In this document: one piece after another, positions 3,407-19,694 of the stretch
How the letters are laid out: each line of letters opens with the position of its first letter
Position numbering within the stretch: position 1 is the first letter of the stretch
Source: Candidatus Nitrosocosmicus arcticus
GTDB taxonomy: Archaea > Thermoproteota > Nitrososphaeria > Nitrososphaerales > Nitrososphaeraceae
Length of the DNA: 64,000 nucleotides
Direction: 5' to 3'
Assembly (NCBI RefSeq): GCF_007826885.1
Contig: NZ_ML675585.1
Coordinates: 62,001-126,000 of the forward strand
Translations under genes and position numbers: made by a program
The notes under the pieces: generated by a model
The model's database searches: none
Seen by the model: only the letters and a program-made list of their open reading frames with translations
What the model was told of the DNA's origin: nothing

Positions 3407-3430
3407 GTGAAAGCAGTGAAGGCTGTGAAG
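3407..3430 (+). repeat. 24-bp direct repeat, right after the antiporter gene
   Basis: The sequence GTGAAAGCAGTGAAGGCTGT plus GAAG is internally periodic: GTGAA occurs three times at 9-bp spacing. An exact copy lies at 4688-4711. The two copies sit 20 bp and 28 bp outside the two ends of the cation antiporter gene. Confidence 0.85.
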
Positions 3431-3450
3431 GTTCTAGAGAGCGGGTTTAA

Positions 3451-4659
3451 TCATTTTATAAAGTAAAACCCCAGAGCAATTGCAATAAAAAAACCTACAA
3501 GTATCACACCCTGAAACCAATTCCCTCTTCCGCCATTAGTTATAAAATAAACTAAAAATATTGAAGCAAACATGGTGATTAATTCAAACGGAGTAAAGAT
3601 TAATGGAAATGATACGCCCATTATCATTGCACCAACAATGATAACTGGTAGTACAAATAATGCGATTTGAGAAGCGGAATTTGCAGCGATCCCTAGAGCC
3701 AAATCCAATTTTCCTTTCCTTGCCATCATCATAGAAGTGATTTTTTCAGGGACATTTCCTACAATACCAATTATGATAGCGCCCACAAATAACACTCCTA
3801 GGTTAAGATTGGTGATGGTCTCTTCCACAGTACTGACTAGTATTTCACTTATTATTGCAATTCCTATCATACTTATGGCCAGTATGCCAATTGCTTTCTT
3901 CTTGCTCCATATACGTGGATCATCTATTTTCTTAGTAATCAGAATCTCAGCATTTGAATTAGGTTTTGACATTAAATCTGTTTCATTGGTAGAGGTTACA
4001 AAGAGGTCTTTATGTGTCTTAAAAGTAAAAAATAAGCTTAAAACATACACAGATAAAAGTAATATTGCAAAAGAGTTACTCAAAATCATAACCATAAAAC
4101 CTGTTGATTCCATTTGATTTTCTATATTAGCTTCTGTGACTGTTAAATTTCCTAAAATCAATATAGTTGGAATCGATAGAATGGTAATGGATATGAGTAA
4201 CAGCGTAATATGAAATACAATGTTTTTTTTATTGAAAATTTGCTCTCGAAATTTTAACCCCCCCACAATCAAACTCAAACCAAAAACTAACAATAATTGG
4301 CCCAAGATAGACCCAACTATATTTGCCTTAACTAAATCGAATAAACCCGCCTGGATAGCTACTATCGATAGTATTATCTCTGGAGTATTTGAGAATGTGA
4401 CATTGATCAAGGAGCCTCCAGTATTTCCATAATGCTCTGCGAGGTGCTCTGTAGTGTCTCCTACTAATTTGGCCAATGGTATTAGGGCTAGTACTGATAA
4501 TGCAAACAATACTGTATTGTCGATAGAGAAGAAAATATCTAAAATAATTGTGATTGGCACGAAAATTAAGAGGATATAGAATACATTTGATATGTTAAAG
4601 AAATGGTTTAGTAGTCGAGCCAATAAATTTAACCATTTCTTTAGACTAATTGTAGACAT
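3451..4659 (-). CDS. Ca2+/H+ (cation) antiporter, CaCA family
   Basis: This membrane protein exchanges Ca2+ or a similar cation for protons across the cytoplasmic membrane. It shows two alpha repeats typical of the CAX branch: GNTGGSLINVTFSNTPEI at residues 78-95 and GNVPEKITSMMMARKGK from residue 301. Both contain the key acidic residue (E94, E305). About eleven hydrophobic segments are visible, with a polar acidic loop around residues 215-255 splitting the halves. The length of 402 aa is usual. The gene stands alone and is bracketed by a 24-bp direct repeat, which suggests it may have moved or been duplicated as a unit. Substrate (Ca2+ or Na+) is inferred from family only. Confidence 0.88.
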   Translation of the reverse strand: MSTISLKKWLNLLARLLNHFFNISNVFYILLIFVPITIILDIFFSIDNTVLFALSVLALIPLAKLVGDTTEHLAEHYGNTGGSLINVTFSNTPEIILSIVAIQAGLFDLVKANIVGSILGQLLLVFGLSLIVGGLKFREQIFNKKNIVFHITLLLISITILSIPTILILGNLTVTEANIENQMESTGFMVMILSNSFAILLLSVYVLSLFFTFKTHKDLFVTSTNETDLMSKPNSNAEILITKKIDDPRIWSKKKAIGILAISMIGIAIISEILVSTVEETITNLNLGVLFVGAIIIGIVGNVPEKITSMMMARKGKLDLALGIAANSASQIALFVLPVIIVGAMIMGVSFPLIFTPFELITMFASIFLVYFITNGGRGNWFQGVILVGFFIAIALGFYFIK

Positions 4660-4687
4660 ATAAATATATTAAGAATTTTTACAAATA

Positions 4688-4711
4688 GTGAAAGCAGTGA
4701 AGGCTGTGAAG
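4688..4711 (+). repeat. 24-bp direct repeat, just upstream of the antiporter gene
   Basis: Exact copy of 3407-3430 in the same orientation. It lies 28 bp upstream of the antiporter start codon, where a transcription regulator could bind. The triple GTGAA at 9-bp spacing resembles an operator or iteron. Confidence 0.85.
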
Positions 4712-5668: not shown

Positions 5669-6703
5669 CTAAGTTTTTAATAGATTGTAAAGGTCGAGAT
5701 TCTCTTTCTTTAAATTCTCTAAACTGATAGGCGGATATCCTTTATCATATCTTAGCTGTTCCATAATTCTTTGTGGATATTTCCATCTGATCTTGTTTAC
5801 CTTATTGCACCTATCCAACCATTCAGTTAGTATAGAAACCACTTCATGTTCCGACAAGCTTTTAATAGTTACGAGATACGGTATCAATATGTGCCATAAA
5901 CAATAGTATCTATAATCAGCAATTGGAGTTTCAAGTAATTTGTCTATCCACGCTATTTTATTGCTATTTCTTATTGAATCGCTGTTCTGTTTTCTCTTCT
6001 TCAACTCTTCATTTTCAATCTTTAGTTGTATGAGATGATCCAAGAAATGCAAAACTAATGGATTCGCTAATGCTTCAATATCGTCCCATTTTTGGATTAT
6101 TTTGACCTTTTCGTTATACTTTGAATTTATGGTTTCTGGGATTCTAATCAGGCATGAGTTAATAGAAGGATTGTGTTTTGAGTCTCCCTTACCATCTGTA
6201 AGATAATTTTCTGCAAAGCGAATAAATTCAGTAGTAAGGTCATTTCCTGTAAAGGGGGCGAATTCCTCTAATTCCTTAAAAGTTTCTAAAGGTTGTTTTT
6301 CTTGATTTTTGGTAACTATTTTAATTGGTTGATAAATATGGTATCCACCTCCTGTCCATAACACTGTAGATTGACCATCAATCTCCTCTTTTATCTTCTT
6401 TAATGTTTGCTTTAGAATGTAGTCAAGCTTTCTAATAGGATATTTACAAGTGGAACATAAAGATAGATCTAAATCGATAAAAATGAAGCTGGGGTATAGT
6501 TGGTTCATCTCTGACTCATTATGAGCAGGGTAACCATTAATTCTACAGTCAACAAAATTAGCTTCTGTAAAATACTTCATCATTTCATCTTCAGAATCGA
6601 CAAAGACCTGACCATTGGTTCTTGCAGTCATAATTGATCTAGGGAACTCAAATTCCTGTCCGGAGAAATGAGTTAGAATAAAATGGACGTTGTTCTCAGT
6701 CAT
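5669..6703 (-). CDS. Archaeo-eukaryotic primase-like protein, 344 aa
   Basis: Three hallmark motifs of the archaeo-eukaryotic primase superfamily are present in order. They are FIDLDL (residues 75-80; metal-binding Asp pair), TGGGYHIYQP (117-126; conserved His) and LIRIPETINSKY (185-196; third motif Arg). Cys83 and Cys86 may bind zinc. The C-terminal 90 residues (YYCLWHILIPYL through RIMEQLRYDKGYPP) look like a PriX/primase C-terminal helical domain. It would make primers on the element's DNA. It lies across the iteron array from a second, larger primase-helicase. Whether the two form one complex is unknown. Confidence 0.75.
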   Translation of the reverse strand: MTENNVHFILTHFSGQEFEFPRSIMTARTNGQVFVDSEDEMMKYFTEANFVDCRINGYPAHNESEMNQLYPSFIFIDLDLSLCSTCKYPIRKLDYILKQTLKKIKEEIDGQSTVLWTGGGYHIYQPIKIVTKNQEKQPLETFKELEEFAPFTGNDLTTEFIRFAENYLTDGKGDSKHNPSINSCLIRIPETINSKYNEKVKIIQKWDDIEALANPLVLHFLDHLIQLKIENEELKKRKQNSDSIRNSNKIAWIDKLLETPIADYRYYCLWHILIPYLVTIKSLSEHEVVSILTEWLDRCNKVNKIRWKYPQRIMEQLRYDKGYPPISLENLKKENLDLYNLLKT

Positions 6704-6883
6704 GGTTTAACCATTTCCTTTTAATGAACATAAAACAAAAAAGTAGAGACATCTAGTTACTGGTAGATAGAGGCTCATTTGACTTTTTTAATTTATATCA
6801 TAATGAATTTTAGCCGGTAGAGGTTATCTTTAGATTCTGGTTTTTTATTAGTAGTTGGCATAAATAATTATGATGATGATTTT

Positions 6884-6928
6884 TTGTCAGGGTTGTCAGG
6901 GTTGTCAGGGCTGTCAGGGCTGTCAGGG
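6884..6928 (+). repeat. Iteron array: five tandem 9-bp units
   Basis: Five head-to-tail units of TTGTCAGGG or CTGTCAGGG run without gaps. Two inverted relatives (CCCTGACA, CCCTGACG) follow at about 7011-7038. The array lies just beyond the 3' end of the primase-helicase gene and between it and the second primase gene. Iterons beside replication genes commonly mark plasmid origins, so this is a candidate replication origin of the integrated element. Confidence 0.75.
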
Positions 6929-7019
6929 TAGTTGTACTTGACTTCATAGTTATACATGATGTGGAAAAGAGAGATAGTAATAAAGCACTAATTATTTTCA
7001 GGGTACATAACCCTGACAT

Positions 7020-9344
7020 CTATGACGTCCCTGACGTCATTTCTACTAGCTCCATTTCTATTTTTTTCTCATATTCAGGACTTAACCTCACTCCATTCCA
7101 ACATGTTTTTCTTTTACCATCTATCTCTACACCTAATCTACCATCTTCAATGTTCATCTTCTTCTTTAGTTCTTTCCCCAAGGACTCTTTTTGTTTGATT
7201 GCTATCTTGTATTTGTTGCAGTATTTTACATATGCATCATACATATCATCCTTGGTTACCTTATCACTAACAACAGATTCTTGTAATACCGCTTCTTCAT
7301 AAAATGCTCTTATCGGATCAACTGCCTTTTCGTATTTTTCTCTTCTTTCTTCAATTGTTTTCTCGTTCAAGTATAATCCATTCCTATTTAGTAAAGTGCG
7401 TAAAGCAATCATCATCACGTTGAATATCCCTGACATCTCTTGTTCTGAGCTTAATTTTGTCAACAAGAAAGGATCATCTCTTTCTGTGCCTTCAAATGTA
7501 TTTGGGAAACTTATGATAACCTCTCTTCTATAGTATGCAGCAGTTTGATCAATAGTCTCGGTTATAGTATTGGTATTAAAGAAAAGCTTGGCATGCAAAT
7601 ATGTATCGTAAGCCTTCTGATTCTTTCTTTCTATTCTTATGGGTTGTTTTCGTCCTCCTGTAAGTTTCTTCAGGTTAGAAGTATCGTTAACAGAGGCGCT
7701 AGAGAGCTCGGTATCAATATTTACGTCCTTAAACTCTAAATCCGAGATTGCAAAGCGATTATCAACTATAGAAGAAATAGGTACGTTGCTTATATTTTTA
7801 GTATCATGCATAGCTGATAATAAACCTGTAAATACGCTCTTACCATTAGAACCATATCCAAACAGTTTAAAAAAGTGCTCATAAGGACAATCACGATAAA
7901 ATGTGTAGGCCATAGATTCAATAGCAGTTCTGACTTCACTAGAATATAAAACATCTTTCAGAAATTTCCCAAACAGTTTAGGTTTTATCTTTGGATTGTA
8001 TGTTATAGGTTTTTGGTTTAATGAAAGATAATCAGGAGAATGTGGTAGTAATTCATTTTTATTGAAATTGTATAAACCATTTCGTAGGTTTATTATATTA
8101 AGGTCAGCATCAAGTTCCTCTCTTCTATGATATGTCTTTCTAGCTATATGTCCTTTAATTTCAGCTATATGTTTGTTAGAAATTTTGTAACCACATATTC
8201 TTTCAGCCTCCTTTTCAATCAGAATATCGCCACCATATACATATGCTCCATCTTTGTAGTAGTAAACATCCCTCGATTCTTCGAAAGTTAAGAAGTAATT
8301 ATTTTCTAGTATTTTCTCAGTAGTCTGTTCTACGAGTTTACCTGCATCGAGTTCAGCTTCTGTTACCCTTGTAATATTATGGTTTCTAAAGTTCTTATTC
8401 TTGACCACAAAATTGGTACTACATTCCCAGATAGAATCCATCTCAACTCGTGGTAATGGATTAGGGGTACAGCACTTTTCATTGATTTCATAAAAGAACT
8501 GTTTCAATTTCTCTATATTACTCATATGTTCAAGTAGATGATTAAACAGTATGGAATTGGCTATAGACACAAGAGCGGAATGTCTTTCTCCTTCGTTGAT
8601 TACTACTCCGTTCTTATCATCGATTTCCAGAGTCTTTATTGCCTTTCTTAACTTCGTGATAGTCGATCCGTTATTTCTATCGATGTACTCTAAGCCATGT
8701 TTCCTGCATATGATATTAATGTGTTGCAACATTTCAATTGCTTGGACCTTTGTTAATTTTGGAGGTTCGTTAGTTCCCAAAATTTCCCATCGATGACCTT
8801 CAGAATGCATAGTTGGTGATGAAGCCATATATCCGTTACCCTCGATACTACCTTTGACTTCTAACCCTAATTTCGTATCTGCTCCCTTTGTAGGGAAAGG
8901 AATAGGAGAAAAGAAGTAAATATGTAATGAATTTAGGTCATCTTTATGTTGTTCAACCATGAATTTTAGGGAAAGCGTTTCTAATGGTTTGAATTCACCA
9001 TTAATAGTACTAAATGCTTCTATGGCTTGTCGGGTATCACAATCGATTCCTATCAAGTATAGTTCATCATTGTCTGAATAAGTACGTCCTGGCAGGACGG
9101 CAAACCCATCATTAAATAATCCTTCTCTTTTCCAAGTTTCAAACAAATTATCCGGAATCCTATTTGTTTTGAAAGAGAACCAATTTACTCTATTTGGTTT
9201 CTTATTTTTCGAATTAATGGGTATAACATTTACCTTTTTCTCATAATACCAATAGTCTAATGTCTCTATGATCTTGTTTTTGGTAGCAACTTTTATTTGT
9301 CCCGGTGTGTTAGAAATACTCACAGGACTTTGAATAGCAGACAA
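7020..9344 (-). CDS. Primase-polymerase / SF3 helicase fusion (D5-like), 774 aa
   Basis: A replication protein of plasmid or virus type. The N-terminal prim-pol domain shows IGIDCD (D101 and D103, metal site), LHIYFFSPIPFP and a conserved MHSEGHRWEILG block. The C-terminal superfamily 3 helicase has Walker A GYGSNGKS near residue 498, a Walker B-like DVNIDTELS, a sensor strand AKLFFNTNT near residue 588, and arginines in YYRREVIISFPNTF. A winged-helix-like tail ends the protein. The same layout is known from archaeal plasmids and from integrated thaumarchaeal elements. A zinc-ribbon gene lies 2 bp upstream, so the two are probably co-transcribed. Its 3' end overlaps an inverted-repeat box next to the iterons. 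Confidence 0.88.
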   Translation of the reverse strand: MSAIQSPVSISNTPGQIKVATKNKIIETLDYWYYEKKVNVIPINSKNKKPNRVNWFSFKTNRIPDNLFETWKREGLFNDGFAVLPGRTYSDNDELYLIGIDCDTRQAIEAFSTINGEFKPLETLSLKFMVEQHKDDLNSLHIYFFSPIPFPTKGADTKLGLEVKGSIEGNGYMASSPTMHSEGHRWEILGTNEPPKLTKVQAIEMLQHINIICRKHGLEYIDRNNGSTITKLRKAIKTLEIDDKNGVVINEGERHSALVSIANSILFNHLLEHMSNIEKLKQFFYEINEKCCTPNPLPRVEMDSIWECSTNFVVKNKNFRNHNITRVTEAELDAGKLVEQTTEKILENNYFLTFEESRDVYYYKDGAYVYGGDILIEKEAERICGYKISNKHIAEIKGHIARKTYHRREELDADLNIINLRNGLYNFNKNELLPHSPDYLSLNQKPITYNPKIKPKLFGKFLKDVLYSSEVRTAIESMAYTFYRDCPYEHFFKLFGYGSNGKSVFTGLLSAMHDTKNISNVPISSIVDNRFAISDLEFKDVNIDTELSSASVNDTSNLKKLTGGRKQPIRIERKNQKAYDTYLHAKLFFNTNTITETIDQTAAYYRREVIISFPNTFEGTERDDPFLLTKLSSEQEMSGIFNVMMIALRTLLNRNGLYLNEKTIEERREKYEKAVDPIRAFYEEAVLQESVVSDKVTKDDMYDAYVKYCNKYKIAIKQKESLGKELKKKMNIEDGRLGVEIDGKRKTCWNGVRLSPEYEKKIEMELVEMTSGTS
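7022..7040. promoter_or_regulatory. Perfect inverted repeat at the iteron edge
   Basis: ATGACGTC, a 3-bp spacer, and GACGTCAT form a perfect 8-bp inverted repeat. It overlaps the last codons of the primase-helicase gene and contains one of the CCCTGAC iteron relatives. It could be a dimeric protein-binding site in the origin region. Confidence 0.5.
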
Positions 9345-9346
9345 TA

Positions 9347-9592
9347 CTAAACTTGACCTCCGTCTTTTAAGATAAGCCGACTAGATGTGCTTGTTTGAAC
9401 CGCATTTGCATCTAGCTCACCTACGACTTGATTTTTTCTAATGCTTACTGATGTTTTACATTTACTACAGGAAGTTACATAGTTATTAGTTCCTGTATAT
9501 AACCATAAATTACCACAACGTTTACATGATAATGATACGTTTCTCGTCATTAGTTTATATTCTGGTAGTATGCGTAATTTATATGTTACCAT
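9347..9592 (-). CDS. Zinc-ribbon protein, 81 aa
   Basis: Two Cys-x2-Cys knuckles (SCKRCGNLW and SCSKCKTSV) form one zinc ribbon in the middle of the protein. The N-terminus has basic and aromatic residues and the C-terminus is Ser/Thr-rich. The gene ends 2 bp before the primase-helicase start, so the pair is likely one transcript. A small nucleic-acid-binding or regulatory role in replication of the element is inferred. The ATG start is preceded by AT-rich DNA. Confidence 0.7.
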   Translation of the reverse strand: MVTYKLRILPEYKLMTRNVSLSCKRCGNLWLYTGTNNYVTSCSKCKTSVSIRKNQVVGELDANAVQTSTSSRLILKDGGQV

Positions 9593-9859
9593 TACGAAAC
9601 ACTGGTATTAGATAATTATAACATAATTATTATTAAATGGGTAATAACTTCAAGGCAGGATTTTACCATAAAACGGATTTGATAAACAGGACTTAATATT
9701 TGGATATTCAAATCAGATTCCGACTAGTTCGGGGTTAATTATTATAAATCCCGAGCTTAAAAATCAATCTATTACGTTTTAGGATCATCTGAATCTGATT
9801 ATGTAGTATACGACAATAAATTGCGGCTAATGCTTAAGCAGAACCTTGTTTGAACACAA

Positions 9860-10621
9860 TCATGAATGGTAATCGGGTTTGCTCTTATCGATAAAATCAT
9901 CCAGGTTGTGCATATCAATCCTTAAATCTGTCTTTGAATAAACTTGTGATCTATTAATTCTTTGATTAGTTTTTGTAATTACTTTTAGATGTTCAAAAAC
10001 ATCGAGATCTGCTTTTAATGGTTGTCTATTTTGAATTGTTTCTCTATCGCCTATCATATCTTCTAGTTGGACTTTTGAAAATTGATTGCCTAATTTATTC
10101 ATGGCAAGCAACATTTTTCCTATGTGCGAATTGGGGTCATGAAAATCGCCTAGTTTGATATGCGTTTCTTTATTTTTTCCACCCGAAACAATGGCAATAA
10201 ATGAGCTATCCTTCCTAAAATACTGGTACGTAATCCTTTCGCCCTTCGGATTGTTCTTCCCTTCCTTCTCAAAAATATATTTATATCCATTATATTTTTC
10301 TTCAGGTGGTATCTTTTTTTTCCGATCCAATGAATTGGAATTTACAATAGTAACGTTATTACCACTGTTAGGGTTTAACACATAACGATCATCATAAAGT
10401 TTAATGATAATAAAAGCGTCAACCATTTTGTCAATAACAGAATAGGCCTTATCATGTAAATAATCGGGTAATTGTATAACTAACTGTTTTTTGGTGAATC
10501 GGGGTGATCTAATTATTTTAGAATCCATATAGGTATTTGCTAAAATCGTATTCTTGTATACTTTCCCGAAAATCATTTCTTCCTCTTCACTTAAATTAAT
10601 AAACCGCGTTGTCAAGGCCAT
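9860..10621 (-). CDS. Hypothetical element protein, 253 aa
   Basis: No family recognised. The protein is basic and Asn-rich, with no signal peptide. The C-terminal third (QFSKVQLEDMIGDRETIQNR through the LDVFEHLKVI segment) could fold as a winged helix, as in many plasmid proteins. It is transcribed divergently from the winged-helix gene at 10730 across a 108-bp AT-rich spacer, so that regulator may control it. Likely an accessory gene of the integrated element. Confidence 0.6.
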   Translation of the reverse strand: MALTTRFINLSEEEEMIFGKVYKNTILANTYMDSKIIRSPRFTKKQLVIQLPDYLHDKAYSVIDKMVDAFIIIKLYDDRYVLNPNSGNNVTIVNSNSLDRKKKIPPEEKYNGYKYIFEKEGKNNPKGERITYQYFRKDSSFIAIVSGGKNKETHIKLGDFHDPNSHIGKMLLAMNKLGNQFSKVQLEDMIGDRETIQNRQPLKADLDVFEHLKVITKTNQRINRSQVYSKTDLRIDMHNLDDFIDKSKPDYHS

Positions 10622-10698
10622 ATAATGATATTATACTTCGTTAAATATAAATATTGTGCGATTTAATTAATAAAAAGTATATTTACATAGAAATAAAA

Positions 10699-10710
10699 GT
10701 ATATATATTT
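10699..10710 (+). promoter_or_regulatory. TATA box of the winged-helix gene
   Basis: AGTATATATATT centred about 26 bp before the ATG at 10730. This spacing puts transcription start at or next to the start codon, so the mRNA is probably leaderless, as is common in archaea. Confidence 0.55.
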
Positions 10711-10729
10711 AGCATTATTATTATATTGT

Positions 10730-11131
10730 ATGAAGAATACTACTAGCTATAACCAGGAAAATGTCAACTCTGTTTCGGTCCGTTCCAGGTTAAATGAGAA
10801 GGATGATCGTTTAATGACACATCAGGATATAGAGGAATTGAGTAATCGACCTTTGGCAAGAATATTCACAAGTCCCTCATCTGCTAGAATAATTGATTTT
10901 TTTATAGCCTTCAGAGAATTTGATTATTCTGAGGTGGACATTGCGAGAAAAAACAATCTCTCACAGAAAACAGTATCCAAGGAATTAGAGAATTTGTTAA
11001 AGGAAGATCTGATAAAAATAACCAGGAAAAGTGGCCGATCTATAATGTATAAATTGAATGAGGGAAAAACGTCTGAAGGGTTAATTTTATATGTAAATAA
11101 TAAGATTGAGAACATTAGGGCCAAAGTTTAG
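10730..11131 (+). CDS. Winged-helix transcription regulator, 133 aa
   Basis: After a 30-residue polar N-terminus, the protein reads as an ArsR/MarR-like winged helix. A first helix (LARIFTSPSSARIIDFFIAF) is followed by a recognition region (EVDIARKNNLSQKTVSKELE) and a wing (LIKITRKSGRSIMYKLNE). No sensor domain or metal site is visible. It is divergent from the 253-aa gene and near the integrase, the usual place for an element's own regulator. Confidence 0.75.
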   Translation: MKNTTSYNQENVNSVSVRSRLNEKDDRLMTHQDIEELSNRPLARIFTSPSSARIIDFFIAFREFDYSEVDIARKNNLSQKTVSKELENLLKEDLIKITRKSGRSIMYKLNEGKTSEGLILYVNNKIENIRAKV

Positions 11132-11496
11132 TCCCGATTGTGACTGTCACTTGTTAGCAGTTGATGGATATTATGCCAACGGAAGGTTTTAGGGATCATA
11201 TGTTTCATTGCGGTAATTTTCAAGACTAACAATAAGGGGAGGTCCTTCAAATAGCAGCCTAGAACAGACCGAGTAACCACGTAACTAGTTCGTCAATTCA
11301 ATCGTTTGCAAGTTGATAATTCCTTTCTCAACTCATCCAAAACTGGCCCTATCCTTCTTGTTATTAATTCGTTAATGAAAATTGTAATGTTTTTGGTTGG
11401 AGCATAAATTCCTCAAAAATACATAGATTCCTATAATCTGAGCTTTTGTCCCTTCATCTTTTCAAATAGATGTGGTGACTATGATCTATTATCGTT
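11132..11496. other. Intergenic between regulator and integrase
   Basis: The regulator and integrase genes converge on this 365-bp stretch. I find no reading frame, tRNA or clear repeat in it. Confidence 0.5.
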
Positions 11497-12381
11497 TTAA
11501 TTACTATTAATAAGATCATATAGTTTATCCAGCAACTTAGATAACTGGTTAAATTTGTCTAATGGTGGCCGATAGTAGTGCCTTAAGAATATCGAGTTGG
11601 GGATACGACCTTGGAGCAAATCTATAATCTCTGCTTCAACTCCTTCATTTCTTAGAAATGTTGCAAAAACTTTGCGACAATACGACATTTTGAAGTTTTG
11701 ATTGTTTCTTTGAAATGTTAATCTAATCTTAGAATAATTCGGAATAGAGTTTTCTGGATCCTTGACCAATCTTAATATATTCTCGTTTATGAGCGAAATG
11801 AATGCCTTTTTAGTCCTCCTCAAAAAGATAGTTGGATACTTGTAATGCTCTAATCTTTTTCCGTCATTAGAAATATATGATGATGAGGAAGACAGAAGTA
11901 AATTATATGATTCGAGTGCTTCGGTCGGTCTTAGCCCAGTGAGTGTATTGAATAGCAATATATTTCTAAAACGGGGGTATTTACCAATTACCAATTTAAT
12001 CCAATCAACCATATTATTAAGATCGCCATTTTCTAGAAGTATATTCTGAAATCCTCTAAGGGAATCTATGGATGACCATTTTAACTGATAATTCCTTCTG
12101 ACCTGTTGCCATTTTTCATATTGACCATTATACTTTGACAATAATGCGAGCGCTCTCATTATGTGACCCCTTTTCTCGTTCGATAATTTCACTAGTTCGG
12201 AGAGATCCCATGTTTCTAGTAGATGAGAATACTTGCGCGCATACACCATACGATTCCTTACTGTAGTCCTTTCGAGTTTTAGTGTCATCTCTAAGTATTC
12301 TCTAAAATTACTCATTGAGGCCGGGATTTGAGTGTTCCCTCTCAAGGCGACGATCCCGGGTTCAAATCCCGGCCGGAGCAT
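11497..12381 (-). CDS. Tyrosine integrase, SSV-type, probable int(C) part
   Basis: A site-specific recombinase. Conserved catalytic features are TGLRPTEA (first Arg), a Lys in the beta hairpin (RRTKKAF), YCRKVFATFLRN (HxxR-like box with Tyr/Cys in place of His) and SIFLRHYYRP with the tyrosine nucleophile. The first residues (MLRPGFEPGIVALRG) are the antisense translation of a tRNA-Glu T-arm, so the attachment site lies inside the coding frame. An in-frame TAA sits only 9 bases upstream of the ATG, in flanking DNA. This fits a gene split on integration, with int(N) at the other end of the element. Whether this part alone is active is unknown. Confidence 0.8.
   Translation of the reverse strand: MLRPGFEPGIVALRGNTQIPASMSNFREYLEMTLKLERTTVRNRMVYARKYSHLLETWDLSELVKLSNEKRGHIMRALALLSKYNGQYEKWQQVRRNYQLKWSSIDSLRGFQNILLENGDLNNMVDWIKLVIGKYPRFRNILLFNTLTGLRPTEALESYNLLLSSSSSYISNDGKRLEHYKYPTIFLRRTKKAFISLINENILRLVKDPENSIPNYSKIRLTFQRNNQNFKMSYCRKVFATFLRNEGVEAEIIDLLQGRIPNSIFLRHYYRPPLDKFNQLSKLLDKLYDLINSN
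12319..12374. repeat. 13-bp perfect inverted repeat at the attachment site
   Basis: GGCCGGGATTTGA (12319-12331) and its exact reverse complement TCAAATCCCGGCC (12362-12374) face each other across 30 bp. One arm is the tRNA T-arm/acceptor region; the other is extra. Paired arms of this size are typical binding sites of tyrosine recombinases. Confidence 0.8.
12339..12380 (+). other. 3' half of tRNA-Glu(CTC): attachment site (attR)
   Basis: From the anticodon loop onward this matches a tRNA: loop CTCTCAA with anticodon CTC (12341-12343), 3' stem GGCGA, T-stem CCGGG, loop TTCAAAT, CCCGG, acceptor CCGGAGC and A73. The 5' side is missing: no GCTCCGG acceptor strand or D-arm precedes it. It is therefore not a functional tRNA but the duplicated half left by integration. 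Confidence 0.8.
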
Positions 12382-13560
12382 TTCTGTTTAGTATCATTAT
12401 GTGCTGGTTTTAGATAATTTTCAGAAATATACATTGTTGGCCGATTATCATTAGTAATAGATGATAGAGAATAAGTATATTGTTTTGTTAAATCAGGCGA
12501 ATAATAAATATCGCAAGCGATATAGTAAAGTCCTACCTTTCTAAAGGATTCTTCGGAGCCTACTCAGATATAGTTTGAGTTTAAGCCCTTATGACAAAAT
12601 TGGCATCTAGTCAATTAACTACCATCAAAATACTGCTACTTGATCTATGTAAATGAATTATCACCTCAGAATCACTTTAGAAATTCATTATGGAATCCAT
12701 CCATTGAATTCTTGTTGTATGATTTGGATACATGTTTTTGTCCTCGTAGGAATTGAATTTCAGATTTGGAGAGAAGTGACATAAAGCATCTAATGAAATT
12801 ATGTTAAAAGATCTTTTGATTAGTTGTAATTGATTGTAAGACAAATCTAGTAATCATTCAACAACGACCTAGAATGTATGCTATAGCTTGACGTTGCGGG
12901 TTCAAATTCTATGTTTAAACGAAGAAAAGAAGAGGTGCGAAGTGCGTGATTTGAACCCGCGATCCCTTTCACTTTACAGATTACCTTTTTTGGTTACATT
13001 TGGATTTAGATAAGGAAGACACAGATCGGACATTGATATTCAAAAAAATAGGAAGTTCTTTTTTTATCAATGTTGAATTCATAATTGTGATTGTCTCCGA
13101 TAAGCTTAAGACAATCAATAACGCATGTCAAGAAATACGGAACATCTATTCTAAGAATCATTGTCTCTATGTTTTACAGGTTTATTGCTATTGTTAATGC
13201 CCCATTGCAACTCATACCGATTAGAACGTGAAAAATGATAATGTCCGGGGATAAATAACTTGTCAAATAACAGAGAATAAATTGTGAGTTTGAGTATTAC
13301 ACGTATTATTTTGTACTCAGAGGACCTAAGATTTAGATTATAACAGCTAGTGTATTGAAAACTAGAATACAAATATAAAAATAAGATAAATAAAGTATAC
13401 TTGTTTTAGAATTTGACAATCATACCCGAAAATATACACATTAGAGCTTATTTTATTATAAAAAAAGATAATGTGGAACGATTTAAAAAACTGATAAGAG
13501 AAATGAGTTAAGTTGTTGAGACCAACGAACCAGGTACGTTAGAGTATCGATTCTATCTTA
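12382..13560. other. Gene-poor junction region with tRNA-like remnants
   Basis: I find no credible gene. It contains a short perfect palindrome, ATATCGC-AA-GCGATAT (12508-12523), and two tRNA T-arm-like pieces facing each other (12896-12907 and 12949-12960). Frames of 65-73 codons here lack any coding character. It reads as debris flanking the integrated element. Confidence 0.5.
12896..12981 (-). other. Degenerate tRNA 3'-end remnants in inverted arrangement
   Basis: GCGGGTTCAAAT on the plus strand (12896-12907) faces its exact reverse complement (12949-12960). On the minus strand, the right-hand copy continues like the 3' half of a tRNA: a CTGTAAA loop (as in tRNA-Tyr), then GTGAA, the T-arm with one mismatch in its stem, and an ACTTCGCA end. 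The variable region is too long and no 5' half is present. It is likely an old attachment-site remnant; the tRNA identity is uncertain. Confidence 0.45.
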
Positions 13561-13791
13561 ATGAAGATGGAACTAAATGTAGTCCATGAAACATATGCCG
13601 ATTCCAAGGCCGGTCTATCTCACAATGATGGCGCCGCATCAAAAACAATTCTCCCGAATATTTTCAATTTGGCCCAATTAAATAGAATTGACGTTTATGG
13701 GAATCCTAATGACGAATTGAAAAAGGTGTTGGCAGGTCTTAGTTCACAGACGTTTAATTTGTTTACTGGATTCAGTCGGAAAAATGAATAA
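13561..13791 (+). CDS. Hypothetical protein, 76 aa
   Basis: A short reading frame with balanced composition, ending FNLFTGFSRKNE. It has no metal motif, signal peptide or membrane segment. The ATG is followed by a second ATG two codons later. It may be a genuine small protein or the tail of a decayed larger one; nothing around it helps decide. Confidence 0.35.
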   Translation: MKMELNVVHETYADSKAGLSHNDGAASKTILPNIFNLAQLNRIDVYGNPNDELKKVLAGLSSQTFNLFTGFSRKNE

Positions 13792-13883
13792 CAGAATAAG
13801 ATATCATCATTCTTTGTCTTTGTTTATTGATTAATGTCTCTCCACGCCACTCATGCAAGACCCGATTTTCCACCGATTCTCTT

Positions 13884-14042
13884 TTAACAATTCAAGATTT
13901 CTCGAAGGTTAGATGTATATTCAGTCTCCGAATCTATTAAATCACAAATTATCTGGTCGTTGTTTTGGTTACTATCTGTCAGGATATCCCCCATCTGATT
14001 TGCAGAATCAATTGAGTTGAATGTTATTACATACAGAAGCAT
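13884..14042 (-). CDS. Small ORF, 52 aa, unknown
   Basis: This frame begins MLLYVITFNSIDSANQMGDI and ends ILNC. Its amino-acid use is protein-like, rich in Asp, Asn, Ile and Ser, like other genes here. An AT-rich TATA-like stretch (ATATTAACGATATAAT) lies directly upstream. It could be a real small protein or a fragment. No family recognised. Confidence 0.3.
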   Translation of the reverse strand: MLLYVITFNSIDSANQMGDILTDSNQNNDQIICDLIDSETEYTSNLREILNC

Positions 14043-14147
14043 ATTATATCGTTAATATATTGCCACATCTTTTCGCCTTTACTGAACGTATTGCGATCCA
14101 CATATACGAATCAATAAAACGTTGCGAAACGCCTTATCATCAGTGCA

Positions 14148-14545
14148 ATGACTTTTATAATTTGTTCAACACAAGTTTCTGTGAGTTATAGCATAGATTG
14201 GATTGATACCATCAAAAAAGAGACAAAGGGCATAAATGGCAAGGATTTTGGAGAAGTCCAAGATGTGTCGAACGGTTATTTTTTAGTCCAGAGAGGCGTT
14301 GTCAACAAGGGAAGGTTTTGTACCTCGATATTTTAAGGGAGGCTAAGTCCACGGTGGTAAGGAAATGGATAGTATCATATTTGGCCACGAAGGGTATTCA
14401 GGCGCTGATTAACAGACTCGAATCAGAGGAGGAGACGGTAAAACACATCCGTGAAAGACAAAAACGCTTTTTAAAAACAATCAAGATTGTGGACCGTTAC
14501 CGATCTTATATAATTATGGATACTCCCCACAGGGGCTATTCATAG
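14148..14545 (+). pseudogene. Broken gene in two frames, unknown
   Basis: The first frame contains WIDTIKKETKGINGKDFGEV and VSNGYFLVQRGVVNKGRF, then stops at 14334. Coding character continues in another frame from about 14318 (REAKSTVVRKW, then a charged helical tail). The first part resembles the small PRC-barrel-like proteins of thaumarchaea that read EVQ-x-V-x-N-x-Y-x-V-x-R-G. The two halves probably belonged to one gene broken by a frameshift or small deletion. The family guess is weak. Confidence 0.4.
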
Positions 14546-14721
14546 GTTGGGTAATGGCATTTACTTTTATATCGATTCATGATGAGGTCTATCATTTTAA
14601 ACGGTTTGTCCTGATTCACATATATTGGATCATTGGGATCCATTTCTAATGAATTGTTGATAAGATAGGTAACAATTACAGATTTATCTAAAAAAATAAT
14701 GAAAGAGCAGGATACGAGAAT

Positions 14722-14913
14722 ATGTATTCTTTAGTTAAGTATGTCTATAAGGATGATGGGAAAGTAGATTCATTTGGTTTTACCATCAATAAAGAGAATC
14801 TTAAAATCTTAAAAGCAATGATTGATGTGGTATTAATTGCTGATGATAAATCAGATAATAATAAAAAGGTTAAAACCCCCCTAGCATACCGTATATCCAT
14901 GTTCTCACCATAG
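14722..14913 (+). CDS. Hypothetical protein, 63 aa
   Basis: A small protein with a plausible alpha/beta pattern. It starts MYSLVKYVYKDDGKVDSFGF and continues with a helix (NKENLKILKAMIDVVLIA). It ends in a Lys-rich segment followed by a short uncharged tail. The ATG is preceded by AT-rich DNA. Not recognised; isolated in a gene-poor stretch. Confidence 0.4.
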   Translation: MYSLVKYVYKDDGKVDSFGFTINKENLKILKAMIDVVLIADDKSDNNKKVKTPLAYRISMFSP

Positions 14914-15029
14914 GTAATTCTAAATCAAATACAGTTTGATTGCGGACAAGAATTCAAATGTGAGGTATTTGCTTCCCGATAATAGTTTAAAATTATGCCA
15001 AAAAAGCTAATAAGGTTTAGAAATAATAT

Positions 15030-15209
15030 TTGAGAAAAACTATAATTGTCAGGTATGGCCCTGTAAATGGTTTTCGCAGACCCACAATTTGGTGGTCGCT
15101 AACACAGTATGGTGAAAAATATTTCAGTAAACATGGCGAGGAACTACATGAATATCAGAATAATAGATTTTGTATCGTGGATCATAGTGAATCTCGCAGG
15201 TGCTCTTAA
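15030..15209 (+). CDS. Small ORF, 59 aa, TTG start, unknown
   Basis: The frame reads RKTIIVRYGPVNGFRRPTIW, then WSLTQYGEKYFSKHGEEL, and ends SRRCS. The aromatic and basic pattern looks like a real protein domain, not chance coding. The start is TTG; no ATG is available at the 5' end. It may be a small DNA- or RNA-binding protein or the end of a lost gene. No family recognised. Confidence 0.35.
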   Translation: MRKTIIVRYGPVNGFRRPTIWWSLTQYGEKYFSKHGEELHEYQNNRFCIVDHSESRRCS

Positions 15210-15263
15210 AAAATCTAACAATGATTCAACTGTTTTTTTGATAAAAGTATATAATGGATCTAT

Positions 15264-15857
15264 ATGTTAGAACAGTTAGTTAGAATATTGATCAATACTT
15301 ATATCTTAGTAACACTTTTGGCAGTTATCGTCATGGTTGTCGTTGTGCCTATGTCCAGTGCTCAACCAACATGGGAGTTGTATGAAAACGAGTACTGTGG
15401 AATATCACTAAAACATCCATATGTTTCAGACACTATATCAGATGATGATAATTCCGACAATAATTTTCAAATCTATAGTTTCGTAGACCACGCGGATCCT
15501 GATTCAATGAACATGACGTTAATGGTTTCCTGCATAGACAAAGCAATTCCAATAACTTATGAGGTCATGGAATTAGCAAAATCGAGTTTGTTAAAGGATT
15601 CTAAAACCATCGTTCTTGAAGATATTTCATTTAATAGGACGACAATTGATGGTGAAACAGCAGGGTCAGTGGCAGTTAGCAAGCCTATTGGATTAGCAGA
15701 TATCACAGAAATTGACAACACTATTGAAACCAATCATTCCAATCAAACCTATGTCATTAAACTAAATTTTGCCGGGGGTGAAGGTCTTAGCGGATTTTAC
15801 AACAACTATAAGTATCTGGAAGACAACCTGATTGACTCGATTAAATTTTCTGAGTGA
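15264..15857 (+). CDS. Exported protein with PsbP-like features, 197 aa
   Basis: The N-terminus is a long hydrophobic segment (about residues 11-33) ending SSAQP, a typical signal peptide. The mature part begins with WELYENEYCGISLKHPY, like the aromatic start of PsbP/lipoprotein-type domains common among thaumarchaeal exported proteins. Two cysteines could form a disulphide outside the cell. The rest is Asp/Asn/Ser-rich. Function unknown; the domain call is by pattern only. Confidence 0.65.
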   Translation: MLEQLVRILINTYILVTLLAVIVMVVVVPMSSAQPTWELYENEYCGISLKHPYVSDTISDDDNSDNNFQIYSFVDHADPDSMNMTLMVSCIDKAIPITYEVMELAKSSLLKDSKTIVLEDISFNRTTIDGETAGSVAVSKPIGLADITEIDNTIETNHSNQTYVIKLNFAGGEGLSGFYNNYKYLEDNLIDSIKFSE

Positions 15858-16422
15858 TTGGATCATTTACAAATATTGTTTTGAATCATAAATTAATTCA
15901 TTATGATTTTAAAATACAGTCAAAGAAATTGTTATATTTATTTTTCTTTGGTTTATCTAAGGAAATATCTGATTATGAGTAATTTGTGAGATTGTTGATG
16001 TATAATTTAACTGAGTTTTTCATTAATAATGCATACCCTCTAATTTATTCAATGTATCCTTCTGTCCTATTGCTATTTGGATTATAAGTCTAAATAATCA
16101 GATTCATAATATGCCTACAGGGCAAATACGCATTTGTTAACCATATTATTTTAGTTAAGTTGTTTGACATATTCTCATTAGACAATCGATAAAGGTGATA
16201 GTAAATTAATATATTTTAATAATCGCTAGAATTATTTATTAATTAAATAATATTCTTGGTTGAAATACAATGCTATCTTGTTTTTTTTAGGTACAATTGG
16301 TTAAAGCCGTCCATAAGATCTCCCTATCTAAATAAATGATAAGCAATGACCATTTAAGGTTTTAATTGTAGTATAGTGAAGCTACTAGATCAAGTCGACA
16401 TCTGGGAGAGCTTAAAACAGTA
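15858..16422. other. Intergenic, nothing recognised
   Basis: This is very AT-rich sequence with no persuasive frame on either strand and no repeat longer than chance. It separates convergent genes. Confidence 0.5.
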
Positions 16423-16854
16423 TCATCTTTTCAGCCGCTTAACAATTTCAACAAGTTCATTTACTAATTCTGCCTCCTCTTTAAGAATGTCGTGTTCCTT
16501 GAGATAGTATTCATATTCATTTTCCAATAGCACAATCCCACGATCTAAGTCTTTTCCATATATATTAAGGACACTCCTCAGAAGAGCCGTGTTCAAATAT
16601 TGACGATTTGGGTTGTTATCAGATTTGTCAAAAAGAATGCCGATGTTATTTAAAACATTCTTTTTGTTTGTGTCCAATGAATGCAGTATGAGATTTGCTT
16701 GGGCTATAACTACTGGATTATTATTATTTTGTTGCTCTACTCTTATTTGACTATGGAGTTTATTTTTGTAAAAATCAAATGCATTTTCAACCATTCTAGA
16801 ATAGCGTACAAATCCATTAAGGTAATCTTCATTTATCATAATTAAGAATGACAT
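16423..16854 (-). CDS. Hypothetical helical protein, 143 aa
   Basis: An all-helical cytosolic protein. It has a central Asn-rich linker (QQNNNNP) and a C-terminal coiled coil (YYLKEHDILKEEAELVNELV to the end). It has no metal motif or signal. A start at the second Met (MINEDYLNG) is also possible. Not recognised. Confidence 0.55.
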   Translation of the reverse strand: MSFLIMINEDYLNGFVRYSRMVENAFDFYKNKLHSQIRVEQQNNNNPVVIAQANLILHSLDTNKKNVLNNIGILFDKSDNNPNRQYLNTALLRSVLNIYGKDLDRGIVLLENEYEYYLKEHDILKEEAELVNELVEIVKRLKR

Positions 16855-18244
16855 GATAGCGTATTAATTTCTATACAAATGTTAAATACGAAAATGGTTA
16901 GATTTTCTATTTGGCATCAAAATAACAAATGGAGCTGTGGTTTTATTTTTTTTACATAATGACAAAAAGGAAACCCGTTTCATGTGATTAATATCTAATA
17001 CATCACTAGCCGTACATGTTGTTCCTTTATAGCATATGTAGATTAATTATCCATTTTAGAGTCTTATTCAAATAGTTGAAAATAAGAACGTTTATTTGAT
17101 TCTTACAAATCTGATTGTATTGTTTCTGTCAGATAGTTTTTCTTAGGTATCTATATTGAAGGAACAAGGGATAGATAGACGTAGTGTGGTTTAATTTTTC
17201 GCGCACGATAATGGTGCGAATCTAGTTCAAATAATAAAGAAATCCTACGCTTCATTTTAGACTTGTATCTGCACTGAAAAATAAACCGTCGAATCAAATC
17301 ATGAAATTATTAACTAATTTGGGAAACTAGCGCCGAGGCATAAAAAATAATTAAGATTGCAAATATACAAATTCATGGATTTGAACTTGGCGTATTATGA
17401 GTACGCAGTAAAATTAGTCCATACAAATAGAAAATTAGTTAGTACTAGCTGTGGTTTGTTTCTTTTTGGATCTATTAAATACTTTCATTATTTTTTCTTT
17501 TATTGAGTTATTAGTTTTCGTCATTTACTACTTGTATATATAGGAGGGATGTCGGTCTTAAACCTTCTTATGACTTTGCCGGCCGACTCGTTAGGTTCCC
17601 TAAAATCTCGTTGATTCAAACAGTTACTATTACTATTTCGAGTCAAAGGAAAATACTCCCCTGCTTGGTGAATCTCCTTTCTGATTCAGTGTGATGATAA
17701 TGCGCCTTAGAACCAAGCCAGAAATTAAATGGTTAGGAAGACCAAGACGTGAGGTATTTAGATTTTAGTGTATATCATGAATGGGCGTTGAGTGTTGTTT
17801 GATTTTCGAGCTAAAAAATGAGGATATGCCTTGATTAAGATTGATGTAGGGATAAACAGAATACATTAACTTGTAACTCTGAAATTCCTATCCGAATTTA
17901 AACGAAGCAAGTTTTGAGTAATATAAAAGCAAAAAGATACGACGCCACATTAAATCTATCCTTCCTGCAAGGACGGTTGAGACGCATAAACATTAGTAAT
18001 TGAATCGGAAATAATTTTGTTTCAGGAGGTATATCCTGAAAATTAATCTTTTTGCAACTATAACAAAAAAACAGAATCAAATTATCAGATTGTTTTAGTA
18101 AAACCCATTTTAATATTCCCACTATTTACCCACAATATTTTAGTCCTTAAAAACCAGATAATTATTCTAGAAAAAAATTAACTATCAATCATAGTATAGC
18201 ATTGTATTAAACCTAATTATACACATATTTTCACTTAAAGGGTT
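16855..18244. other. Long gene-poor stretch
   Basis: Almost 1.4 kb holds no gene I can support. A 74-codon frame on the minus strand (17898-18122) contains a Cys-x2-Cys but otherwise looks like chance. A nested hairpin lies at 17545-17601, and a partial relative of the 26-bp repeat (TAGTTTTTCTTA) occurs near 17134. Confidence 0.45.
17545..17601 (+). ncRNA. Candidate structured RNA (nested hairpin)
   Basis: An outer stem AGGGA (17545-17549) pairs with TCCCT (17597-17601). Inside it, GTCGGTC (17551-17557) pairs with GGCCGAC (17581-17587) with one G-U, closing a 23-nt loop. The stretch is GC-rich in AT-rich surroundings and follows a TATATATA sequence. No known RNA family recognised. Confidence 0.3.
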
Positions 18245-18607
18245 ATGGCGATCACCTTGTCATCATCTACATCAACCACAAATTCTCTTATGGAAGAAGA
18301 TGAAATGAGGTTCCGTTTAGAGAAAATAGACGTATGTAACCAGCTCCTTAGAAGATTAGATGGAGGAATACACTATATTAAATGGGATGGAATTTTACCA
18401 TTGACAAAATATTCAGCAAAGTCAAATGTACAAAAAAAAATTGAAATTAAAATTGAATCCGATATAGAATATGGTAAATTCATTTATTTAAGAAAACCCT
18501 ACATTACTAAGAAAATCAAAATATGTGGAAGGGATTCATCATGGATAAAATCGTGGAAAACTGAACAGTTAACCGAACTAGCCTCTAAACTTTCATTCCT
18601 TAACTGA
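18245..18607 (+). CDS. Hypothetical protein, 120 aa
   Basis: The first 15 residues are Ser/Thr-rich, followed by an acidic helix (LMEEDEMRFRLEKIDVCNQL) and a beta-rich basic second half (KIEIKIESDIEYGKFIYLRK). There is no membrane segment or metal motif. The ATG has AT-rich DNA upstream. Not recognised; it is the first clear gene after the gene-poor zone. Confidence 0.55.
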   Translation: MAITLSSSTSTTNSLMEEDEMRFRLEKIDVCNQLLRRLDGGIHYIKWDGILPLTKYSAKSNVQKKIEIKIESDIEYGKFIYLRKPYITKKIKICGRDSSWIKSWKTEQLTELASKLSFLN

Positions 18608-19102
18608 ATTAAAATATTTTGGTTCCCACATGTGTTTCGAGTATAACTAATGGTATGTTTCTAAACCTATTCTCAACTTTACTGAACAGTTAAGGTTTTC
18701 AAATTTTTTACTAATTGCAATCATTTTCGTATTTAATTCCAGTTTGGACATGTACCTATTTCTCCATTAATTGTCTGTGCGTTTGCTGAAAGCACAAACG
18801 GAACAACAAGACTCAGATATAAATTAAATTCCAAGCTAACTATTATTATGCAAAAATTATTTTAAGATTCAGCCTTTAGCAAATTTGACAATTATAAAGT
18901 TAATTTATTAAGCTCTGAATCCCTCTGAAGTTACCTAACAACGGATGTGGTAAAAACCCGGCCCATGACCAATATTTCCAATCTTCAAACTCTATGCTTG
19001 TCGCAAAAACAGATTAAATCCCGTCAATTATGGCTTTTAATTCATCGGCACAGAACTGAAAACTAAAAGCAAACTAACTAACTAAAAAAAACAAAAAAAA
19101 GA
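18608..19102. other. Intergenic downstream of amoC
   Basis: No gene supported. A short hairpin can form from CGTTTG and CAAACG around 18780-18797. The stretch just before the amoC stop is A-rich (AAAAAAACAAAAAAAAG), which on the amoC strand is a T-tract and may terminate its transcript. Confidence 0.45.
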
Positions 19103-19666: not shown

Positions 19667-19694
19667 TTTTACTATCACTATACCTTTGTCGATT

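Follow-up and report, generated by a model that had tools for sequence, protein, structure and literature searches.

PriX is described as a primase subunit of the Sulfolobales. The origin of the plasmid pRN1 is a stem-loop located just 3′ of its primase-helicase gene, and is stated to lack iterons (PMC4234260). For thaumarchaeal integrated elements, the parts of Krupovic et al. 2019 considered here describe integration in tRNA genes, split integrases of the SSV type and primpol-S3H replication proteins (PMC6563490); the word PriX is absent from that paper, and no element with two AEP proteins was found in those parts of it. Here, a locus carrying two primases was analyzed in the window, i.e., the whole stretch of 64,000 nucleotides under study. 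Positions 5669–12380 are the right-hand part only of an element that an ammonia-oxidising soil archaeon carries integrated in its chromosome, and the following features were considered in and around it:

3407–3431, + strand: second AGTGAAGGC array, bracketing a Na/Ca exchanger gene together with the array at 4687–4711
4687–4711, + strand: second iteron family, AGTGAAGGC × 2.8, 3′ of the AEP-PriX gene
5669–6703, − strand: AEP-PriX primase, 344 aa, with a PriS-like AEP domain (D77, D79, H122; RIPETIN motif) and a fused PriX domain (D263, R265)
6704–6813, − strand: upstream segment homologous to the CL10 ATPase gene 3′ end and spacer of G323 C97, putative recombination junction
6882–6932, + strand: iteron array 1, with five copies of the 9-bp unit TTGTCAGGG/CTGTCAGGG, between the two primase genes
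7011–7038, − strand: inverted half-array of CCCTGAC units across the SF3 gene 3′ end, predicted to form a stem-loop with array 1 (Tandem Repeats Finder and core scan)
7020–9344, − strand: SF3-primpol, 774 aa, TTG start, Prim-Pol / PriCT-like / D5_N / SF3 helicase / winged-helix protein with a self-contained, pRN1 ORF904-like architecture
9347–9592, − strand: 81-aa Zn-ribbon protein, separated by 2 bp from the downstream SF3-primpol start
9860–10621, − strand: 253-aa protein of no recognised family (Pfam, PHROG, NCBIfam)
10730–11131, + strand: divergent winged-helix (ArsR/MarR-like) regulator, 133 aa, weak matches below cut-off
11497–12381, − strand: int(C), encoding the C-terminal portion of a tyrosine integrase of the SSV type and beginning within the att derived from the tRNA (PF16795, E 1.2e−8; phrog_5127 integrase)
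12337–12380, + strand: right att, a 44-bp exact copy of the tRNA-Glu(CTC) 3′ half
16423–19678: host flank (143-aa gene, 120-aa gene, AmoC), which directly follows an empty tRNA-Glu(CTC) in congener G154

Two primases and the ends of the element

The initial annotation had placed two different primase-type proteins on either side of an iteron array. Both genes are indeed intact at the coordinates listed above, and the array was confirmed in the 316-bp spacer that separates them (5.1 copies of TTGTCAGGG at 6884–6929, score 78, Tandem Repeats Finder). The primase-like 344-aa protein with a PriX-like tail was likewise borne out: residues 251–343 matched PriX in Pfam (E 2.5e−10), the PriX equivalog domain NF033412 of NCBIfam scored 57.4 bits (cut-off 50 bits), and the AEP motifs were present. 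A missing primase fold had been named as grounds for abandoning the proposal; the AlphaFold model (pLDDT 88) contains one, and Foldseek matched both of its folds, the AEP part to CAPP Prim-Pol, RepB', PriS and LigD, and the PriX domain to 4wyh/5of3 (TM 0.77–0.82). Across 18 aligned AEP-PriX sequences, D77, D79, G118, G120 and H122 of the AEP domain were invariant, as were D263 and R265, which align to D70 and R72 of PriX. The protein belongs to the AEP superfamily by its fold, DxD, (S/G)xH-like motif and basic motif III, and its C-terminal domain is a PriX by domain match and initiating-nucleotide residues; it does not represent a PriSLX heterotrimer, as PriX is fused to AEP and no PriL domain was found in the 344-aa protein with Pfam or NCBIfam. 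The dN/dS against relatives was ~0.08–0.13 where dS was unsaturated, and the sequence comparison indicates an intact gene under strong purifying selection relative to these relatives. No viral, plasmid or phage relatives were detected in IMG/VR (single-sequence and alignment scans), PLSDB or INPHARED; by fold, the nearest among such candidates was the uncultured archaeal virus protein A0A1S5Y2Y2.

The separate prim-pol/SF3 helicase fusion of the initial annotation was upheld by Pfam matches above cut-off (PF09250, PF08706, PF19263, PF03288, including Prim-Pol, D5_N and DUF5906/SF3) as well as by TIGR01613 (NCBIfam). PDB profiles matched the 774-aa protein to ORF904 (weak, direct) and to the SaPI-type primase 7ola, and its invariant residues include D101, D103, H141 and a GxGxNGKS P-loop. 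Carrying Prim-Pol, D5_N, SF3 Walker motifs and a winged helix, it falls among the Prim-Pol/SF3 proteins (pRN1 ORF904-like, D5-like) and is a complete Prim-Pol/SF3 helicase with its own intact primase and PriCT-like domains. A chance pairing of weak motifs was ruled out by the profile, fold and conservation evidence for two primases.

The right end of the element lies at the tRNA-Glu(CTC) att and the left end (tRNA-Glu and int(N)) on contig C3 of the same genome, where the int(N) matching int(C) was found beside an intact tRNA-Glu, the ends of this putative SSV-type element lying on different contigs; both integrase halves occur at the equivalent site in G093. The tRNA-Glu was recognised by reading its sequence, which has an apparent D-arm intron, while an Rfam scan for it gave no match above threshold. 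Placing the left end in the window by synteny was dropped: C8:40–57 kb, left of the element, matches scattered, unrelated chromosomal loci in complete congeners, and no conserved position was seen for the flank immediately left of AEP-PriX, from which we infer a rearrangement.

Partners of the two primases in related elements

Members of the AEP-PriX family are encoded by Nitrososphaerales genomes, where a single genome has up to six matches and integrated elements are a frequent location. At 10 independent loci AEP-PriX lies directly 3′ of a CL10 gene, being full-length in nine of these ten, and several pairs have intergenic gaps of about 30–50 bp. CL10 encodes a P-loop ATPase (P-loop GDNGVGKS in L135) with no recognised primase domain and no Pfam, PHROG or NCBIfam match. 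Its classification as an SF3 protein was rejected, as only the P-loop is present, the hhalign probability to the SF3 profile was 1.6%, giving no profile support, and the structure model was poor (pLDDT 58).

The initial annotation had proposed looking for the same pairing elsewhere and would have counted its absence as a refutation; the pairing does recur, in related arrangements. AEP-PriX directly follows an SF3 helicase at two loci of distant class members (G026 and G032, the latter helicase having no Prim-Pol domain), and decayed remnants lie downstream of SF3-primpols in G070 (tblastn E 3e−9) and on contig C2 of the same genome (HMM E 6e−6); an intact AEP-PriX was present at none of the eight SF3-primpol loci scanned. 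AEP-PriX thus appears to decay more readily beside SF3-primpols than beside CL10, in small numbers of loci. For the SF3-primpol relatives in G070, G100, G248 and G201, the nearby integrase is of another type. A 64-aa Zn-ribbon homologue precedes the C2 SF3-primpol, and a partial match is found near CL10 in L137. A single ancestral SF3-primpol/AEP-PriX pair is less likely, since the window AEP-PriX is closest to CL10-linked genes (78% to G323 C97) and the G070 remnant to other AEP-PriX genes.

Other AEP-PriX genes lie in different settings. Copies 60–75% identical to that of the window, without CL10 or iterons, were found in G070, G093, G114, G154 and G244, and a more distant form sits in a conserved chromosomal setting with a SixA-like phosphatase and a DUF2127-like protein (L139, L140, L145). 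Both would fit an orphan or domesticated AEP-PriX with a host or defence role, alongside which the SF3-primpol element landed or recombined; for comparison, the primase-polymerase of Thermus ICETh2 limits DNA uptake and is dispensable for replication of the element (PMC7693054). We consider this quite unlikely, as the synteny of the orphan copies is weak and the window copy keeps a AGTGAAGGC array and the CL10-type upstream segment, and is therefore element-derived.

Iteron families, junction and a probable mosaic

Arrays of 9-bp repeats are rare elsewhere: 241 kb of control DNA contained eight, all of them lacking an inverted counterpart. Inverted pairs occurred within ~300 bp of the SF3 gene 3′ end at 6/37 loci (4 distinct besides the window) vs. 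0/277 control windows, and any 9-bp array near this end at 15/37 loci vs. 14/277 control windows. Paired inverted 9-bp iterons offer a sequence handle for locating origins in archaeal integrated elements. In the window, array 1 and its inverted half-array (7011–7038) give a DNA fold with z = −3.8, the stem being built of iterons. The TGTCAGGG iterons are shared exactly with another SF3-primpol of the same genome, on contig C2, 3′ of which an exact 27-bp match to array 1 was found. The AGTGAAGGC array at 4687–4711 has a counterpart in G323 C97 (L127 5934–5970) that agrees in core and is placed and oriented alike with respect to AEP-PriX; related arrays are present in L135 and L131, and AGTGAAGGC iterons otherwise occur beside CL10/AEP-PriX genes.

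Homology to G323 C97 extends from AEP-PriX upstream to 6813 (76% over 217 bp), crosses the CL10 3′ end of that locus, with a frame reading EPLSTSN-stop in both, and ends short of array 1; the alignment locates the breakpoint in homology at about 6813–6884, in the spacer of the two primase genes. A 37–44 bp core of the CL10-tail segment recurs in two other places, G100 and the end of contig C3; this weakens a simple interpretation of the 110 bp upstream of AEP-PriX as a CL10 scar, and part of the CL10-tail homology may be a recurrent regulatory motif.

We regard it as probable that the integrated replicon is a mosaic, produced when recombination brought an SF3-primpol module and the origin belonging to it to a position upstream of an AEP-PriX gene of the CL10 type. 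We favour this reading because of what is directly observed, i.e., two intact primases (the selection on AEP-PriX being counted in favour), a different usual partner for each (CL10 vs. SF3-primpol elements with another integrase), two iteron families (TGTCAGGG with SF3-primpol, AGTGAAGGC with AEP-PriX loci) and a G323 C97 homology that stops between the genes, and further because inverted arrays recur 3′ of SF3 genes, a position comparable to that of the pRN1 stem-loop, and because AEP-PriX is decayed beside SF3-primpols and full-length beside CL10. The initial annotation had left a choice between a division of work and a merger of two elements; the iterons, partners and breakpoint strengthen the merger, and no positive evidence was obtained for the division of work.

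In such a mosaic, the Zn ribbon and the Prim-Pol/SF3 protein, together with an origin made of inverted TGTCAGGG iterons at the 3′ end of the gene for the latter, would form a self-sufficient module, joined by recombination upstream of an AEP-PriX gene that would derive from a different element class, with a separate CL10 P-loop ATPase and AGTGAAGGC iterons. The C-terminal winged helix of SF3-primpol would bind the TGTCAGGG iterons, and, in line with the proposal for pRN1, the protein would unwind the origin and then prime through the Prim-Pol/PriCT domains it contains. In AEP-PriX, the PriX domain would keep the initiating nucleotide in place for the AEP domain of the same protein, which would be a retained spare primase, redundant for the TGTCAGGG origin, and would not serve as a dedicated second step. 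The locus would then show replication modules swapped at an iteron origin boundary.

Several points weigh against a mosaic. Variants of the pairing occur in G026, G032, C2 and G070, and it could therefore be an old functional arrangement and no accident; moreover, the 37–44 bp core is recurrent, the helicase activity of CL10 is putative and the counts of decayed vs. intact AEP-PriX are small. A true division of labour, with SF3-primpol opening the iteron origin and AEP-PriX making or restarting primers for elongation, e.g., on the lagging strand, would account for two intact, co-directional genes flanking one array, for the purifying selection on AEP-PriX and for a helicase-then-AEP-PriX order that is the rule in CL10 elements and has an SF3 helicase version in G026 and G032. 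It is nevertheless unlikely, given that intact primase and PriCT-like domains are already present in SF3-primpol itself, that most of its relatives have no AEP-PriX and two have decayed remnants only, and that the iteron-bearing spacer measures 316 bp here vs. about 30–50 bp in several CL10 pairs. We give a similarly small chance to a Nitrososphaerales modular replicon with a constant AEP-PriX and interchangeable upstream helicase-plus-iteron blocks (CL10, SF3 helicase, SF3-primpol), where the two active primases of the window would serve one replicon, PriX-assisted initiation and SF3-primpol synthesis being separate steps. Highly improbable are two complete elements, side by side or nested at a tRNA-Glu(CTC) hotspot, each an independent replicon: congeners do carry tandem insertions at this site (with three copies of the att in G100 and two in both G114 and G093), but no att-like sequence lies between the primase genes, which ruled out nested or tandem elements with an att there, and the AEP-PriX side has neither its ATPase nor the upstream iteron array and is therefore no complete replicon. 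With two intact primases, whether one replicon can use both becomes a testable question.

Comparison with known systems

The window resembles the elements in the part of Krupovic et al. 2019 considered here (PMC6563490) in apparent tRNA integration, a putative SSV-type split integrase and primpol-S3H proteins. RSF1010 (RepA/RepB'/RepC) similarly combines a separate helicase with an AEP-type primase at an iteron origin, comparable to CL10 with AEP-PriX, and RepB' is among the Foldseek matches; the likeness of CL10 to RepA is one of arrangement, and the window system is archaeal with a PriX-type C-terminal domain. SF3-primpol resembles pRN1/ORF904 of Sulfolobus plasmids in the order of its domains, with Prim-Pol first, then a helical PriCT/PriX-like domain, the SF3 helicase and the winged helix, and in having a predicted stem-loop 3′ of the gene as a candidate origin (cf. 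PMC4234260), whereas the stem in the window consists of 9-bp iterons, and beyond the putative origin there is a separate second primase, AEP-PriX. Compared with PriX of the Sulfolobus PriSLX, the window domain is a true PriX by sequence and fold (D70 and R72 corresponding to D263 and R265), but while the former joins PriS and PriL as a subunit of its own, the latter is fused to the catalytic AEP domain of an element-encoded protein, and this fusion of a genuine PriX domain offers a single-chain model for PriX-assisted initiation.

Two primase genes around an iteron array

Features of the window discussed here:
3407-3431 and 4687-4711: second iteron family, AGTGAAGGC, 3' of AEP-PriX
5669-6703, minus strand: AEP-PriX, a 344-aa primase
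6882-6932: five copies of the 9-bp iteron TGTCAGGG
7011-7038: inverted half-array of TGTCAGGG iterons
7020-9344, minus strand: SF3-primpol, a 774-aa protein
11497-12381: integrase, starting within a 44-bp stretch that matches the 3' half of tRNA-Glu(CTC) exactly

The host genome (2.64 Mb, 22 contigs) is thaumarchaeal, and most of its named relatives belong to Candidatus Nitrosocosmicus. The window corresponds to positions 62001-126000 of its contig C8. Both primase-type genes of the initial annotation, and the iteron array placed between them, are present, with both ORFs intact. The PriX-like tail proposed for the 344-aa protein was confirmed as a C-terminal PriX domain by Pfam (E 2.5e-10), NCBIfam (primase_PriX, above the equivalog-domain cut-off), a PDB profile (Sulfolobus PriX, E 1.7e-13) and Foldseek (PriX matched over ~100 residues). 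Across 18 relatives there is no variation, or almost none, in the AEP motifs of its N-terminal part (D77, D79, GGGYH and H122) or in PriX-domain residues D263 and R265. The latter two are aligned with Sulfolobus PriX D70 and R72, which keep the initiating nucleotide's triphosphate in place (PMC6393858). The AlphaFold model (pLDDT 88) has a primase fold, with Foldseek matches to the AEP enzymes CAPP, RepB', PriS and LigD, and dN/dS against relatives was ~0.08-0.13 where dS was not saturated. The 774-aa protein is indeed a fusion, with Prim-Pol, D5_N, DUF5906/SF3 and Pox_D5 domains and intact D101, D103, H141 and P-loop; a close homologue gave a weak PriCT_1 match.

Integration site and element ends

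Since the integrase opens inside tRNA-derived sequence, it fits the C-terminal half of an SSV-type split integrase; host contig C3 carries an intact tRNA-Glu(CTC) followed by the N-terminal half. In congener G154 this tRNA is empty, its left flank matches C3, and the next genes are directly those of window 16423-19678 (143-aa, 120-aa and AmoC), so the right end of an insertion at tRNA-Glu(CTC) lies in the window. Further left, C8:40-57 kb matches unrelated chromosomal loci of complete congeners, and thus a rearrangement probably separated the two ends, the left one not being placeable in the window.

Within the genus this tRNA is an insertion hotspot; several genomes carry two or three copies of att. 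The C3 copy (L005:6913-7020), not detected by ARAGORN or Rfam, has what looks like an intron in its D-arm region, with a different sequence in G154. Some 4 kb (12381-16400) separate the att site from the conserved host flank; the empty site of G154 lacks them. They contain a further tRNA-3'-like stretch, around 12940-12970, and may represent what is left of an older element. A 366-aa Xer-like integrase (C8:57831-58931, ~3-4 kb left of the window) shares 82% identity with one adjoining a CL10/AEP-PriX pair on G114 C12.

Usual neighbours of each primase and the junction

A class-wide scan covered 400 genomes, of which 65 gave AEP-PriX matches and 57 gave SF3-primpol matches. CL10, a P-loop ATPase of 580-840 aa, lies directly upstream of AEP-PriX in ten independent loci (G323 C97, C269 and C114; G248 C241; G328 C173; G194 C49; G100; G242 C47; G223; G114 C12), and in many other cases AEP-PriX is solitary. 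Two distant class members have an SF3 helicase, a small gene and then AEP-PriX; the helicase lacks a Prim-Pol domain in G032, and the G026 contig begins inside the helicase gene. AEP-PriX C-terminal remnants lie downstream of SF3-primpol in G070 (tblastn E 3e-9, two frames) and on host contig C2 (HMM E 6e-6). A DNA-level search of 70 family genomes, four candidates scored per genome, gave no second locus matching both genes adjacently. The intact pairing is therefore rare, yet not unique in kind. SF3-primpol relatives in G070, G100, G248 and G201 are accompanied by a different integrase type.

Five congeners carry a solitary intact AEP-PriX with 63-75% identity to the window copy and neither CL10 nor iterons (L112:10001-11065, L114:9298-10446, L116:4313-5365, L118:7952-8995, L099:6588-7619). 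More distant copies in three MAGs share a setting with a SixA-like phosphatase and a DUF2127-like membrane protein, with no ATPase or iterons and one copy broken (L139:8112-10110, L140:2172-4326, L145:6809-8808); they look like chromosomal orphans and may be domesticated.

Homology to G323 C97, a CL10-linked locus, extends from AEP-PriX upstream as far as 6813 (76% over 217 bp), ending ~70 bp short of the SF3 iterons. The matched stretch includes the 3' end of the G323 C97 CL10 gene, and the frame EPLSTSN-stop is common to both. A 37-44 bp core of the junction stretch has further copies, in G100 and at the end of C3, so a regulatory motif may form part of the stretch.

The simplest account is a mosaic of two replication modules, the merger that the initial annotation had proposed as one option. 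An SF3-primpol module with its own putative origin would have joined upstream of a CL10-class AEP-PriX gene, the CL10 ATPase and upstream iteron array of the latter's source being lost. SF3-primpol is predicted to suffice for initiation, and AEP-PriX would be a retained primase, probably redundant at the SF3-primpol putative origin; it tends to decay beside SF3-primpols and is full-length in nine of the ten loci beside CL10. The other option, a division of labour between the two proteins, is less likely.

Putative origins and known systems

Of 37 SF3 loci, 15 have 9-bp arrays at the 3' end of the gene and 6 have inverted pairs there, vs 14 and 0 of 277 control windows; some loci carry two ids and were tallied under both, which puts the numbers of distinct loci slightly lower. 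In the window, the stretch with both TGTCAGGG arrays gave a fold z of -3.8, and the core recurs at the same position by the C2 SF3-primpol, with 27 bp identical. The AGTGAAGGC arrays match those around AEP-PriX of G323 C97 in sequence and orientation; related repeats occur in L135 and L131, and similar arrays near the 3' end of CL10 genes. Some iterons lie in frame within the 3' coding part of CL10 (L136:1126-3651, L137:4106-5845, L142:5196-7499), giving the protein repeats such as VASVASVA, ESNESNE and VTDVTDLTD. The two AGTGAAGGC arrays of the window, direct copies of each other, exactly bracket a Na/Ca exchanger gene (3451-4659), and a 22-codon fragment 95% identical to it lies beside a decayed AEP-PriX on host contig C4 (L109:9351-10089).

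In the open-access literature we found no description of single-chain AEP-PriX primases from Nitrososphaerales elements, nor of the two-primase arrangement. PriX has been reported as specific to Sulfolobales (PMC9258230), and PriCT domains as structurally similar to it (PMC5862659). Primpol-S3H proteins and split integrases are already described in thaumarchaeal elements (PMC6563490). SF3-primpol has profile matches to pRN1 ORF904 and a SaPI-type primase. The pRN1 origin is a stem-loop directly downstream of the primase-helicase gene, on the same side as the putative origin in the window, but it is without iterons (PMC4234260).
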